A DNA stretch of 64,000 nt from Archaeoglobus veneficus SNP6 (GTDB lineage: Archaea; Halobacteriota; Archaeoglobi; Archaeoglobales; Archaeoglobaceae): contig NC_015320.1 in the NCBI RefSeq assembly GCF_000194625.1, positions 1,286,612-1,350,611 of the forward strand, written 5' to 3'. The notes below the pieces were generated by a model, which was not told the DNA's origin, searched no databases, and worked only from the letters and a program-made list of their open reading frames with translations. Of this stretch, positions 11,688 through 25,930 are shown piece by piece (the first letter of the stretch is position 1; the number at the start of each line of letters is the position of its first letter). The translations under genes and the position numbers were made by a program.

Positions 11688-12709
11688 GGGTTCTTGTTGT
11701 TGACGACTCCAAGTTCATGCGGACTATTATTTCGGACATTCTCAACTCTGATCCTGAGATAGAGGTCATTGGCGAGGCCTGTGACGGCGTAGAGGCCATT
11801 GAGAAAGTAAAGGAGCTGAAGCCAGACGTAGTCACAATGGACGTAGAGATGCCAAGAATGGACGGGCTAACAGCTGTAAGCGAGATAATGAAACTCCAAA
11901 ACCCGCCCGCAATAGTCATGCTGAGTGCGCTTACACAGGAGGGTGCCGATGCAACTTTTGAGGCTCTGAAGCGTGGTGCCGTCGATTTTATGCCTAAACC
12001 TTCCGGCACTGTTTCACCGGATTTAAGAAAGAAGGGGCTCGAGCTAATAGAGAAGATTAAAAATGCTGCTGTTGCGAAGGTTTCCATCTATAAGAGAGTT
12101 GTGAAGCCTAAACCAAAGATTAAATTTGTTACCCCACTCGGAAAACTTGTTGTTATTGGGGCTTCCACAGGAGGCCCACCTGTTGTTGAGGAGATTATGT
12201 CATCTCTTCCACTGTCAGCAAGATTTCGAGTGGTTATTGTCCAGCACATGCCAAAGGGTTTCACAAGCAGGTTTGCAAAGCGCCTCGATTCAGTTTCGGA
12301 TTACGAAGTCAGAGAAGCTGTAGATGGCGATAAGCTCACTGGAGGGGTTGCACTCGTCGCACCTGGTGACTATCATCTCGTCCTCGAAAAGAGCAATGGA
12401 GATATAACAGTCCGGCTAAACAAAGATCAGCCAATAAACGGTGTAAGGCCATCTGTAGAGCCAACACTAATCTCAGCCGCCCGTGTTGACGGGCCTAACA
12501 CGATTGCTGTCATTCTCACTGGAATGGGTAAAGATGGACAGGTTGGTGTTCAGTTTGTTAAAAAAGCCGGTGGAAAGGTAATAGCCCAGAGTAAAGAATC
12601 GTGTGTTGTTTTTGGAATGCCCAAACGGGCAATTGAGACCGGTTGCGTTGATGTGGTTGCTGACATTCCTGATATTGTTAACGCCATACTCAAACTCGCG
12701 GGGGCGTAA
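11681..12709 (+). CDS. cheB: Chemoreceptor methylesterase/deamidase CheB
   Basis: A receiver domain (phospho-acceptor Asp in VVTMDVEMP) followed by a linker and a methylesterase domain. The esterase triad is visible: Ser in GASTGGPP, His in VQHMPKGF and Asp in LTGMGKDGQ. It removes methyl groups from chemoreceptors. The frame is open back to a TGA at 11657 but has no ATG, GTG or TTG before 11717. Starting at that ATG would remove the first strand and the Asp pair (VLVVDDSKFM). The start is therefore taken as ATT at 11681 or ATA at 11684, after GGGGGT at 11669-11674 and overlapping the cheY stop. Confidence 0.9.
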   Translation: MIRVLVVDDSKFMRTIISDILNSDPEIEVIGEACDGVEAIEKVKELKPDVVTMDVEMPRMDGLTAVSEIMKLQNPPAIVMLSALTQEGADATFEALKRGAVDFMPKPSGTVSPDLRKKGLELIEKIKNAAVAKVSIYKRVVKPKPKIKFVTPLGKLVVIGASTGGPPVVEEIMSSLPLSARFRVVIVQHMPKGFTSRFAKRLDSVSDYEVREAVDGDKLTGGVALVAPGDYHLVLEKSNGDITVRLNKDQPINGVRPSVEPTLISAARVDGPNTIAVILTGMGKDGQVGVQFVKKAGGKVIAQSKESCVVFGMPKRAIETGCVDVVADIPDIVNAILKLAGA

Positions 12710-14663: not shown

Positions 14664-15260
14664 ATGAAAGTAGACCTTTACAAGCTTGCAAAAATGAATG
14701 AAATGGCAAAAGAAGGCGCAAGAAGGGTTGCAGAGAACCTTTCGGCAATGCTCGGCATGGATGTACAGATGAAAATAACAAAGATAGACTTCGTCACACT
14801 GAGCGACATACCCGAGGAGATCGGCGACGAAGAGATGGTAGGTGTCTACCTGATGTTTCATGGAACCCCTTCTGGACACCTCATGGTTCTGTTCCCGGTA
14901 GCGAGTGCCAAGAAAGTAGCAAGCCTACTGCTTGCAGGGATTGGAGAAGATAACGGAACGGGAGAAGGGTTTACAGACCTCGATAAGTCTGCAATAAGCG
15001 AAGTAGGGAACATCATAACGAGTTCATTCATCGACGGATGGGCAAACGTGCTGAAGACAGAGATAGATATCTCCACACCCCATCTAATTCACGATATGGG
15101 CTCGGCAGTAATAGACCCGATAATTGTGGAACTTGCAAAGGAGCATGACCACGCCTTCGTTTTCAATAGCAGCATCACAGCCCAAGACAAGGACATTACC
15201 TGCCAGATTTACGTATTCCCGGACATGAACAAGCTCGTAGAGGCGCTCGAGAGACTCTGA
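14664..15260 (+). CDS. cheC: CheY-phosphate phosphatase CheC
   Basis: 198 residues of the CheC/CheX/FliY family, which removes phosphate from CheY. The second family motif, S-x3-E-x2-N in SAISEVGNIITSSFIDGW, is complete. The first repeat (LAKMNEMAKEGARRV) keeps the Glu, but Lys stands where the catalytic Asn is expected, so only one active site seems intact. GGAGGTGG precedes the ATG. It is followed by cheD, its usual binding partner. Confidence 0.9.
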   Translation: MKVDLYKLAKMNEMAKEGARRVAENLSAMLGMDVQMKITKIDFVTLSDIPEEIGDEEMVGVYLMFHGTPSGHLMVLFPVASAKKVASLLLAGIGEDNGTGEGFTDLDKSAISEVGNIITSSFIDGWANVLKTEIDISTPHLIHDMGSAVIDPIIVELAKEHDHAFVFNSSITAQDKDITCQIYVFPDMNKLVEALERL

Positions 15261-15279
15261 TAAAAGTGTCCGGGATACT

Positions 15280-15753
15280 ATGGCAGAGAGGATTAGAGTG
15301 AGAATGGCCGAGTACAAAGTGTGCAATAGTGGAGGGATACTTGTTACCACAGTTGGTTCCTGCGTTGCTATAGGTCTTGTTGATCCCGTAGCAGGTGTTG
15401 GAGGTTTGGCACACATCATGCTTCCAGAGGCAAATGGAAAAAGCGATGCTGTAGGAAAATACGCAGATACAGCGATCCCGGCAATGCTCAAGGAAATGGA
15501 GAAGAAAAGAGCAAAAAAGGAGAGAATTATAGCAAAGATAGCCGGAGGGGCAAGGATGTTCAACTTCAGTTCCGATAAAATGGAGTACGTGGGAGACAGA
15601 AACGTAGAGGCTGTTAGAAGGATTCTGAAAAAGTATGGAATCAGAATTGCTGGAGAAGACGTTGGAAAAAACCATGGAAGGACTGTAGAGTTCCATACGT
15701 CAGACGGCAGGATGATAATAAAAAGAGCTAACGAGGTGATTAAGGAGTTATGA
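15280..15753 (+). CDS. cheD: Chemoreceptor glutamine deamidase CheD
   Basis: 157 residues. The catalytic Cys and His pair stands in TTVGSCVAIGL and GLAHIMLP. The GGARMF segment and the later GGxxGR-type end match the family. CheD deamidates receptor glutamines and stimulates CheC. A second ATG ten codons in (MAEYKVC) could be the true start, since the homologous region begins there and the ribosome site before 15280 is weak. The end overlaps cheR by 4 bases. Confidence 0.92.
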   Translation: MAERIRVRMAEYKVCNSGGILVTTVGSCVAIGLVDPVAGVGGLAHIMLPEANGKSDAVGKYADTAIPAMLKEMEKKRAKKERIIAKIAGGARMFNFSSDKMEYVGDRNVEAVRRILKKYGIRIAGEDVGKNHGRTVEFHTSDGRMIIKRANEVIKEL

Positions 15754-16505
15754 CCGATGTTTTAAGCTTTGTAAAAAACGAGCTTGGACTGAGAGCCTAT
15801 AAAGATAGCTACCTCATGAGGAGAATAAACGCCAGAATGATAAGAAGAGGTATCAGAGACACAGAGGAATATCTCAAGATTCTACAAGAAGATAAGGAAG
15901 AAATTCGCGCTCTTAAGGACGCGCTGAGTATTAATGTGACGGCCTTCTTCAGAAACCCGGAAGTGTGGCAGAAGCTAAAGGAGATCTTGGAAGAAGATGA
16001 CACACCAATAAAGGCCTGGAGTGCAGCCTGTGCAGATGGAAGAGAACCGTATTCCCTCGCCATGCTCTGCGAGGAAATTGGCCGAGACATAAAGATAATT
16101 GCCACCGATATAGACGAGGACGCACTGGCCGCGGCAAGGAGGGGTGTGTATGAAGACTCCAGCGTTACAAACCTCATGAAAGAACTCTCGTTCATCGGAA
16201 ATATTGAAAAGTACGTGGAAATAGATGGTAAAACATTCAGAGTGAAGCCGTCCATAAAGAGAAAAGTAACCTTCATGAGACACGATATGATAAGGAACGC
16301 TCCCCCTGCTTCAGACTTCGATCTCGTGTTGTGTAGAAACTTCCTGATATACATCGAACCTGAGTACAAACCAAAGGTTACTGAGAACCTGTACCTTGCA
16401 CTCAAGAAAGGCGGAATCCTTGTTCTCGGGAAGACCGAAAGCTTGCCTGTGGAAGGATACTTCGAAGCTGTTGATAGAATAAACAGAATATACAGGAGGG
16501 TCTGA
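15750..16505 (+). CDS. cheR: Chemoreceptor methyltransferase CheR
   Basis: 251 residues. A small helical N-terminal domain (RRINARMIRRG, binding receptor tails) is followed by a SAM-dependent methyltransferase domain with FFRNPEVW, AWSAACADGREPYSLAM for SAM binding, ATDIDEDAL and DLVLCRNFLIYI. It methylates receptor glutamates, opposing CheB. The start codon lies within the cheD stop (TTATGACC), and the end overlaps the next gene by one base (TGATG). Confidence 0.94.
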   Translation: MTDVLSFVKNELGLRAYKDSYLMRRINARMIRRGIRDTEEYLKILQEDKEEIRALKDALSINVTAFFRNPEVWQKLKEILEEDDTPIKAWSAACADGREPYSLAMLCEEIGRDIKIIATDIDEDALAAARRGVYEDSSVTNLMKELSFIGNIEKYVEIDGKTFRVKPSIKRKVTFMRHDMIRNAPPASDFDLVLCRNFLIYIEPEYKPKVTENLYLALKKGGILVLGKTESLPVEGYFEAVDRINRIYRRV

Positions 16506-17385
16506 TGGAGTTTGAAACACAGTACAAAATTTTCGTTGTCGCCCTTCTCCTTGGGGTCTGCTTCTACGTCGCTGGAGACGCTCTTACGTCCGCACTACTT
16601 GACGGAAGCGAAGTTTTTCTCACATCTTTCTTCATAAAGCTGGGAACCAAAATAGCCATTTTTGCAGTTGTTCTTCTCGCATCGCTGTTCCTCCTCGGAA
16701 TTGGAACTATACTCGGCCCGAACCTTCCAAAGCTCAGCGATGTCCATCTGGTATACGCGCACCTGACACTCCTTTCAGCCTTTGCGGTCTACGGTATGTA
16801 CCTCACTGCCGACAATCTGCTCGTGTACTTTAACGGTGTTAGACTTGTTGAATTGCTTCCTTTCTTCGTCCCGATGTACGTGTCCGTTTTTGGTTACGAC
16901 GTTATGACGAGACATCTTCTGATTGTCATCGCAGTCATAGCCGCAGCAATAAAAGATCTGGTCGATTTGATGCAAGGAGGCAAGGAGGAGGTAGAAGAAG
17001 AGGAAGAAGAGAGCGAGGGTGAAGCAGAAGAGTCAGAGGAGATAGTTGAGTCAGAGAAATCTGCAGACGAGACGGGGAGGAGTGAAAAACCCGTGGAAGA
17101 AAACGAAGTACAGGAAATTGAGAAAACAGAAGAAACCGAAGTATCACAAACGGAAGCAGAAAAAACGCCAATGAAGAGGAAAGAGCAGAAACATTAGAAT
17201 CCGAGGAAATCGAAGAAGAGGTCATAGACGTTAAAGAAGTTGAAACCGAAGAAGGAGATGTAGCGGAATCTGAAATCTTAGAAGGTGCCTCAGAAGACAT
17301 CCCAGGAGTATCAGAAGAGTTTGAAGGCTTTGAGGAGTTCAATCCCGACGAAGTAGAGTTCGAGGAGTCGGAAGAGGATAGTTAA
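16505..17385 (+). CDS. Che-operon membrane protein with long acidic tail; -1 frameshift at A6 run
   Basis: Residues about 1-160 form four or five transmembrane helices with no family I recognise. A highly acidic tail follows (EEVEEEEEESEGEAEE...). The zero frame stops at 17195-17197, just after changing to a basic and unlikely end (TPMKRKEQKH). Stepping back one base at the run of six A (17160-17165) keeps a Glu-rich frame open to TAA at 17383-17385, ending ...FEGFEEFNPDEVEFEESEED. The whole product would be about 293 residues. The break may be a sequencing error, a recent mutation, a phase-variable tract or programmed frameshifting. It is coupled to cheR by TGATG. A role between receptors and archaellum is inference. 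Confidence 0.7.
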
Positions 17386-24201: not shown

Positions 24202-24627
24202 TCATCCCTCCCAGTACGCCGAAACTCCGTTGTGGGCCACTATTTTCACCCTCGATGGCTGATAGGAAACCGTAACGTTGATCTCCGCAGTCTCGCCAGG
24301 AAGCCACACGTCAACTTCAACACCATTTACTGTAAATGACGTAATATTCTGAGTATATATCTGCCCATCAAGCAGAATTTCCATCTCGTCAACGAGTATT
24401 TCCTCACTCCCGTCGTTTTTGGCTGTTATTGTCAAATTTCCGCTCAGGTAGGTGACATTAAGGATTACCATGTGAGTATGAAGCTGCTCGTACTCCAGTT
24501 CTCCTTTCTCCACCTGCGCCCGCCTGACTATATCCTGAGTTGCGCTGATTGTGTTGAATAAGACACTCGCAGAGATGACAATTGCTACCAGTAGTACTAC
24601 ACTAGCAGCCGATGTCGAGAGCCCCAT
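24202..24627 (-). CDS. arlF: Archaellum stator protein ArlF (FlaF)
   Basis: 141 residues with an N-terminal membrane helix (SAASVVLLVAIVISASVLF) and an extracellular beta-sandwich rich in Asn-x-Thr sites (NVTYLSGNLTITAKNDGS). This is the ArlF arrangement; ArlF binds S-layer protein in other archaea and anchors the motor. The start overlaps the end of arlCDE by 26 bases, so the order arlCDE-F-G matches other euryarchaea. Confidence 0.88.
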   Translation of the reverse strand: MGLSTSAASVVLLVAIVISASVLFNTISATQDIVRRAQVEKGELEYEQLHTHMVILNVTYLSGNLTITAKNDGSEEILVDEMEILLDGQIYTQNITSFTVNGVEVDVWLPGETAEINVTVSYQPSRVKIVAHNGVSAYWEG

Positions 24628-25789
24628 GATCGTTTACGGGAATAACCTCGTTCACTTCTCTTTCGAGTTCCTCGATTTCCCTGATCGCCCTCTCTATGTC
24701 CTCAACTTTAATCTCCACCCCACTCAGCTTGGAAATAAATATCAATGACTTTACGTGATCTTTTAGCGTGGGTACGTTGCTTATCATGCCATCGTCAAAC
24801 TGCATATCTCTTAGAGTGTAGCCTCTCGAACAATTAATCAGAAATTCTTTGACTTCCCTGCTTATCCAGCCTATGTCCACATAGAAGTCGAGAAGTTCTG
24901 CCATTCTCTTTATCCCGAATGTCGTGACGAGGTAGTCAAGCCATTTAAGTACGAGTATGTCAGAAATGAAATCTCTCTTAATTGCTTTGAGATAGGGGCC
25001 AGAGATGCTTATTCTCTTCTCATCTTGCACAACCTGAGTGTGTAAATCGGCAGCCTCAATCGTTTCCTGCTCCACGGGCTCGATGGACTCGGTTTCGAGT
25101 TGCGGTTCCGGAAGTGTCTGATCTTCCTGGACTTGTGGCTGAGGCTGAGGTGATTCTGACTCTGATGCCTCCAGCTCGCGCTTTAGCTTCATGAACTTCT
25201 CTTCTGGAGATTCTTCGACGCTCTTGGATGTATTAAATTCATCGGCAGAAACACTCGGTTCCTCAAAATCTTCTTCGTCTATATCTTCAAAGAAGCTCTC
25301 TGCATCCTTGGAGAGAAGTTCGTCCGGCACGTCTTCCTTGCTCTTATCCTTGTTCAACGCGCTGAACAAACCAAATCCATCCTCATCTCCAACAACTTCT
25401 GTTGCGAAGGGATTAATACCCTCGGTAACCATTTCATAAATACCGAGGAGCTTTCGGATATTCTCCTCAATTTCCTCCAATCTCTTTCCGATCTCCTCAT
25501 TCTCACTTTTGATTGTGTTAAGCTTTGAAGAAATCATACCAACTTCATTTTCAAGATCCTTAATTCTCGTTTCAAGTTCGGTAATTTTTCCTCCACTCTC
25601 CAGTTCGTCACTTTCTTCCTCAAACCCATCTGCAACCTCGTCAAATCCTTCGAATCCCTCTTCCTCCTCTATTGTCTCCTCCACTTCCTCCTCAAACTCT
25701 TCTTCCTCTATCTTCTTTTTCTTTGATTTATCCTTCTTCTTTTTTTCTCCTTTTGAGCCTGAAAGCTTCTTGAGTGCGCCCTTAAACAT
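24602..25789 (-). CDS. arlCDE: Fused archaellum motor protein ArlCDE (FlaC/D/E)
   Basis: 395 residues. A basic start is followed by a strongly acidic segment containing GFEGFDEVADGFEEE, a coiled coil (KITELETRIKDLENEVGMI), the FlaC signature LLGIYEMVTEGINPF, a Pro/Glu/Gln linker, and the FlaD/E domain (SGPYLKAIKRDFISDIL, then LVLKWLDYLVTTFG). ArlC, D and E form the cytosolic ring that receives the CheF signal. ATG at 25789 is chosen because GGTGATC precedes it and a TATA-like TTAAATATAT lies at about 25847-25856. In-frame codons upstream (TTG at 25840) would lie before the transcript start. Confidence 0.88.
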   Translation of the reverse strand: MFKGALKKLSGSKGEKKKKDKSKKKKIEEEEFEEEVEETIEEEEGFEGFDEVADGFEEESDELESGGKITELETRIKDLENEVGMISSKLNTIKSENEEIGKRLEEIEENIRKLLGIYEMVTEGINPFATEVVGDEDGFGLFSALNKDKSKEDVPDELLSKDAESFFEDIDEEDFEEPSVSADEFNTSKSVEESPEEKFMKLKRELEASESESPQPQPQVQEDQTLPEPQLETESIEPVEQETIEAADLHTQVVQDEKRISISGPYLKAIKRDFISDILVLKWLDYLVTTFGIKRMAELLDFYVDIGWISREVKEFLINCSRGYTLRDMQFDDGMISNVPTLKDHVKSLIFISKLSGVEIKVEDIERAIREIEELEREVNEVIPVNDHGALDIGC

Positions 25790-25930
25790 CCTGATCACCG
25801 TACCTATAATTGCCCCTAACAACAATAATAATGAGCACAAAGATATATTTAACTTTTATGGCCTTCAGAGAACAAAGCCTGCTGAAAAGAGCTAATTTGA
25901 GAGAATATCTATAATTAAATTTTCATGCTA

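Follow-up and report, generated by a model that had tools for sequence, protein, structure and literature searches.

In the genome of Archaeoglobus veneficus SNP6, a gene of the chemotaxis (che) cluster encodes an acidic protein tail whose coding pattern runs on, past the zero-frame stop codon, in the -1 frame. The question raised by this locus is whether short and long forms of the protein are produced by recoding or phase variation, or whether the frame was lost by a mutation or by an error in the consensus sequence. The gene lies in a 64,000-nucleotide stretch (here called the window; G000:C1:1286612-1350611) of a genome assembled as a single contig (G000; 1,901,943 bases; G+C content of 46.9% in the sampled part). 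The accessible part of an earlier study (PMC8322695) describes the che and fla genes of A. veneficus as clustered, and the same arrangement was found in the window. The che genes surrounding the gene under study are intact open reading frames (ORFs), and the window genome has CheA, MCPs, and CheR.

The gene, which we designate X, occupies positions 16505 to 17197 of the forward strand, from an ATG at 16505 to a TAG at 17195 to 17197, and its zero frame encodes 230 amino acids. It overlaps by one base an intact cheR (PF01739; 15750 to 16505, forward strand) and is followed by a convergent cheF (PF04283; 17387 to 18292, reverse strand). A sequence search assigned X to no family in Pfam; in NCBIfam there were only two weak matches, far below the cutoffs and extending into the acidic tail, and no match by sequence was found in the PDB. 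We found no literature on X within the scope of A. veneficus, archaeal programmed frameshifting, and CheF or the archaellum. X had been described as an unknown membrane protein of the che operon, and its place between cheR and cheF and the lack of a Pfam family agree with this. The conserved membrane part spans approximately residues 1 to 157 (16505 to 16975, forward strand), for which a low-confidence structural model (pLDDT, 61.5) predicts four helices. Simple hydropathy picks three of these four; the third model helix is under the threshold. Frame comparison and codon scores place the zero-frame portion of the acidic tail at 16979 to 17159. The zero-frame product ends in SQTEAEKTPMKRKEQKH, of which the basic end, TPMKRKEQKH, follows a run of six A residues (A6; 17160 to 17165); the zero frame turns basic and then stops, as had been described.

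The acidic pattern continues beyond this point in the -1 frame (f+2). That frame is open from 17122 to a TAA at 17383 to 17385, and from 17122 to 17382 it contains no stop codon and no ATG, GTG, or TTG. After an AAC at 17164 to 17166, it comprises 72 codons to 17382 and the TAA (17167 to 17385, forward strand), ending in FEEFNPDEVEFEESEEDS. Among the 72 codons, 34 specify Asp or Glu and 2 specify Lys or Arg. When positions 17166 to 17382 were scored with the genome codon model, the log-odds in f+2 was +28.3, with 0 stops. Over the same interval, the zero frame (f0) has five stops and f+1 has seven, and with stops left out the scores were +3.4 and -9.0, respectively. Dinucleotide shuffling opened f+2 in 102 of 5000 shuffles and any frame in 297 of 5000, and 0 of 5000 reached the codon score. 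A single coding tail is split across two frames, which upholds the central claim of the preliminary description. That description also had the -1 frame ending near cheF with a gap of two bases; the frame does abut cheF, but the gap between its TAA and the cheF stop codon is a single base (17386).

The position of the frame switch was less sharply defined. Across the A6 run, the zero frame reads GAA AAA ACG, and the heptamer A-AAA-AAC (17160 to 17166) stands in the f+2 phase. Sequence statistics place 99% of the likelihood of the switch within 17150 to 17189, and the A6 codons carry approximately 34% of it, or about a third. The junction is broader under the genome codon model, with a best position of 17141 and positions up to 17189 within 3 nats. 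The A6 run is present where it had been reported, and the switch may lie in it, but the switch itself is bounded only to 17150 to 17189. In 365 sampled genes, we counted 580 A5, 171 A6, 34 A7, and 3 A8 runs (208 runs of A6 or longer), and 49 of the A6 runs are in the same phase as that of X. The site contains no rare codon, ACG being the commonest Thr codon in the sampled genes (13.4 per 1000).

Of 60 relatives, counting the window's own genome, 3 yielded the membrane part of X, and a four-row profile matched 4 of 57 genomes of the order and 4 of 392 genomes of the phylum. The carriers, all Archaeoglobaceae, are the window genome, G001 and G002 of the same genus, and G064 of the same family; no homologue was found beyond these four among the 57 order or 392 phylum genomes. 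A wider scan of genome contigs returned two loci, on contigs of G001 and G002. In all four genomes, cheF adjoins X. In G001 (metagenome-assembled genome [MAG] INS_M23_B45; locus L006), X is a 212-amino-acid ORF directly beside cheF, and a single frame joins the membrane part, the acidic tail, and the end motif, finishing with GEEFSPDGEK. In G002 (MAG B10_G2), the zero frame of X encodes 263 amino acids and ends in RNPLSTRNSTQKK; its f+2 frame reads ESTEYEEFNPEEIKFDESREE, the counterpart of FEEFNPDEVEFEES in the window. This f+2 frame does not open until shortly before the motif, and the break lies near the end of the gene and not at the A6-equivalent site. No A run was found at the G002 break or in the G001 tail. 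In G064 (locus L035, G064:C32), X ends right after the membrane part and has no acidic tail. It is located there between a cheC-like gene and cheF and overlaps the end of cheF by 12 bases. A comparison with related genomes for the same break had been proposed, and relatives with a single intact frame had been named as evidence that would refute slippage; G002 is broken elsewhere, without an A run, and G001 is unbroken.

The end motif, FEEFNPDEVEFEES (17329 to 17370, forward strand, -1 frame), is matched by YEEFNPEEIKFDES in G002 (f+2) and by GEEFSPD in G001 (f0), and it is retained in all three tailed genomes. Over the 14 end codons of f+2, the window genome and G002 differ 2, 1, and 7 times at codon positions 1, 2, and 3, respectively (P = 0.02). 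The corresponding differences were 1, 2, and 6 for the window f+2 versus the G001 f0 over 7 codons (P = 0.04) and 1, 2, and 5 for the motif in G002 versus G001 (P = 0.09). These samples are small, and their pattern fits a tail that was translated in the f+2 frame for most of its history, until recently. Two further observations concern che genes outside the cluster. Contig C35 of G001 carries a second CheA together with a CheR and an MCP, suggesting a second chemotaxis cluster, and the window genome has a second CheF-family gene outside its che cluster (G000:C1:1182940-1183548; L008), as do G001, G002, and G064.

In G002, X comes immediately after cheY. DNA similarity to the window breaks off near position 11702 and picks up again at 16487, and G002 has therefore lost cheB, cheA, cheC, and cheD and almost the whole of cheR. 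Its CheY carries a Gly in place of the Asp of the MMDI sequence found in the window genome and G001; from established knowledge of CheY, we take this Asp to be the phosphorylated one. CheA (PF02895), MCP (PF00015), and CheR (PF01739) were found in three of the four genomes and not in G002; since this MAG is 76% complete, the deletion within the contig carries more weight. The loss of cheB-A-C-D-R, together with that of the phosphate-accepting Asp of CheY, indicates that the chemotaxis pathway is decaying in G002. The G002 region (L004/L007) also contains a 476-amino-acid ORF between a thiolase gene and cheY, without a counterpart in the window che cluster, and the archaellum ORFs nearby are of normal lengths. 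General decay does not explain the window break, because X has intact che genes around it there.

We consider it very probable that the tail frame in the window was lost by an ordinary net loss of one base, which would be a recent deletion or a consensus error, and not by regulated recoding. Between these two, the balance is close to even, a true recent deletion being slightly the more probable. Ancestral X would have been one protein, with a small membrane domain and a long acidic tail that carried an E-E-F-N/S-P-D end motif; this one-frame arrangement is seen in G001 and is what we infer for the ancestor. Net removal of a single base between 17150 and 17189, most easily from the A6 run, would then have shifted the final 72 codons out of frame. 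Provided that the sequence is correct, the cell would make a 230-residue product in which the acidic tail is cut short and the basic end is accidental. The tail is a fast-evolving appendage, variable in length among the relatives and missing in G064, and its loss is therefore probably tolerated. A net one-base loss is supported by the intact G001 frame, the coding-like but start-less -1 frame, the 2/1/7 pattern, the separate break in G002, and the tail-less X of G064. Counting against it, all three tailed genomes retain the end motif, an argument that the motif matters; two of the three tailed X genes have breaks of the same polarity; and the 2/1/7 codon-position test rests on 14 codons. Because the out-of-frame part is still without stops, the break is either recent or an error. 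X resembles the indel-broken 3' gene ends classed as singleton transitions in the GeneTack study (PMC3711429, accessible part) in having a split coding region, here with start-less coding in the other frame; an intact relative, here a single-frame orthologue in one of the two tailed relatives (G001); and a break near the 3' end. It differs from them in that its out-of-frame part is stop-free and in that a second relative has a break of its own.

The background of such breaks was estimated by a Viterbi frame scan over 464 kb of the window genome (the window and 20 further stretches of 20 kb each), which gave 103 same-strand frame changes. We kept those that lacked a start codon close to the junction, extended 30 codons or more beyond the upstream stop, and had an upstream ORF of 60 amino acids or longer. 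Two of the 103 passed: the X break and an overlap in L053 between two genes that we take to be those for SMC and ScpA, names given by recognition and not by a family search. We read the latter case as two adjacent genes. No further clear frame break was found in the 464 kb, and since the SMC/ScpA overlap is the only other survivor, sequence errors and frameshift mutations are both rare in this genome. In the reverse complement of L053 (approximately 14805 to 15623), the ScpA-like ORF after SMC has no ATG, GTG, or TTG within about the first 30 codons; its opening residues resemble the domain, which would suggest a nonstandard start or tight coupling.

That the break is a consensus error only, with a longer run in the cell, an intact X of about 293 residues, and the finding an artefact, is a serious possibility that we place somewhat short of an even chance. 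The site is a homopolymer, the 72 downstream codons are stop-free with a coding score untouched by decay, the neighboring che genes are intact, and the end motif is conserved, all as an error would leave them. The accessible part of the GeneTack study (PMC3711429) points both ways, in that singleton breaks with BLASTP support are expected to be mostly sequencing errors but a break close to the 3' end is more probably a true indel. Also against an error, 208 runs of A6 or longer were counted in 365 genes, and the break in X is the only one that the sample showed close to any such run.

It is very unlikely that slippage at the A6 run, whether by programmed -1 ribosomal frameshifting or during transcription, makes short and long forms as first proposed. 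The direction (-1) is correct, the site is a homopolymer, the P-site Lys AAA could re-pair in the -1 frame, and the -1 tail is conserved. There is also an archaeal precedent in fucA1 of Saccharolobus solfataricus, which shares with X the -1 direction, a poly(A) site, and a full-length homologue in relatives (PMC8211752, accessible part). According to the same part of that source, however, programmed -1 frameshifting requires a zero-frame slippery heptamer, X-XXY-YYZ, and fucA1 carries a zero-frame A-AAA-AAT, a stem-loop, and rare codons. In X, the heptamer is in the wrong phase, and no hungry codon is present, given the frequency of ACG. With the stimulatory structure defined as a stem-loop or pseudoknot 5 to 9 nt downstream, three folds, computed without pseudoknots, were no better than shuffles (z scores of +0.58, +0.45, and +1.39). 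The slip site is kept in neither of the two tailed relatives, and same-phase A6 runs recur throughout the sampled genes. Neither slippage nor phase variation thus gains positive support; a slip of one tRNA is possible. Less likely still is low-level frameshifting without a fixed slip site, which would keep the -1 end motif in the window genome and G002 by giving a minor long form of X; if true, it would amount to recoding, drifting and site-free, of a disordered archaeal tail.

Phase variation, in which the run would alternate between A6 and A7 within the population, ranks slightly lower again. The homopolymer does lie in the reading frame of a motility-linked membrane protein gene, as in homopolymer phase-variable surface genes (PMC3711429, accessible part), and the A7 runs among the sampled genes show that such lengths occur in this genome. 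In contrast to those surface genes, the run in X is only six bases long, of a length common in this genome (171 in 365 genes) and neither long nor enriched, and no comparable run is retained at the G002 break or in the G001 tail; in the accessible part of the same study, the poly(AT) candidates were set at 7 nt or more. Finally, we rejected a separate overlapping gene in the -1 frame as highly improbable, for despite its length and its end just before cheF this frame has no start codon, its composition carries on from the zero-frame tail, and its end motif belongs to X in G001.

If the break is a plain indel, as we favor, it is chiefly a matter of annotation, with the 230-amino-acid product being a truncated form; if recoding were true, X would be a rare archaeal case. 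The tail of X would be cytoplasmic, and our best guess, from its position and the joint loss in G002, is that at the membrane it makes contact with Che or Arl proteins. By eye, an acidic stretch, EEGFEGFDEVADGFEEESDEL, of a FlaC/D/E-like protein in the window (24602 to 25840, reverse strand) resembles EEFEGFEEFNPDEVEFEES of the X tail, and the two may possibly have a binding motif in common; the FlaC/D/E-like orthologues in G001 and G002 retain FGGF-type motifs. The tail break in G002, alongside the loss of most che genes, suggests that the tail serves the Che pathway. The more useful result is this side result, a variable acidic tail with a retained end motif that is broken alongside che loss in one lineage.
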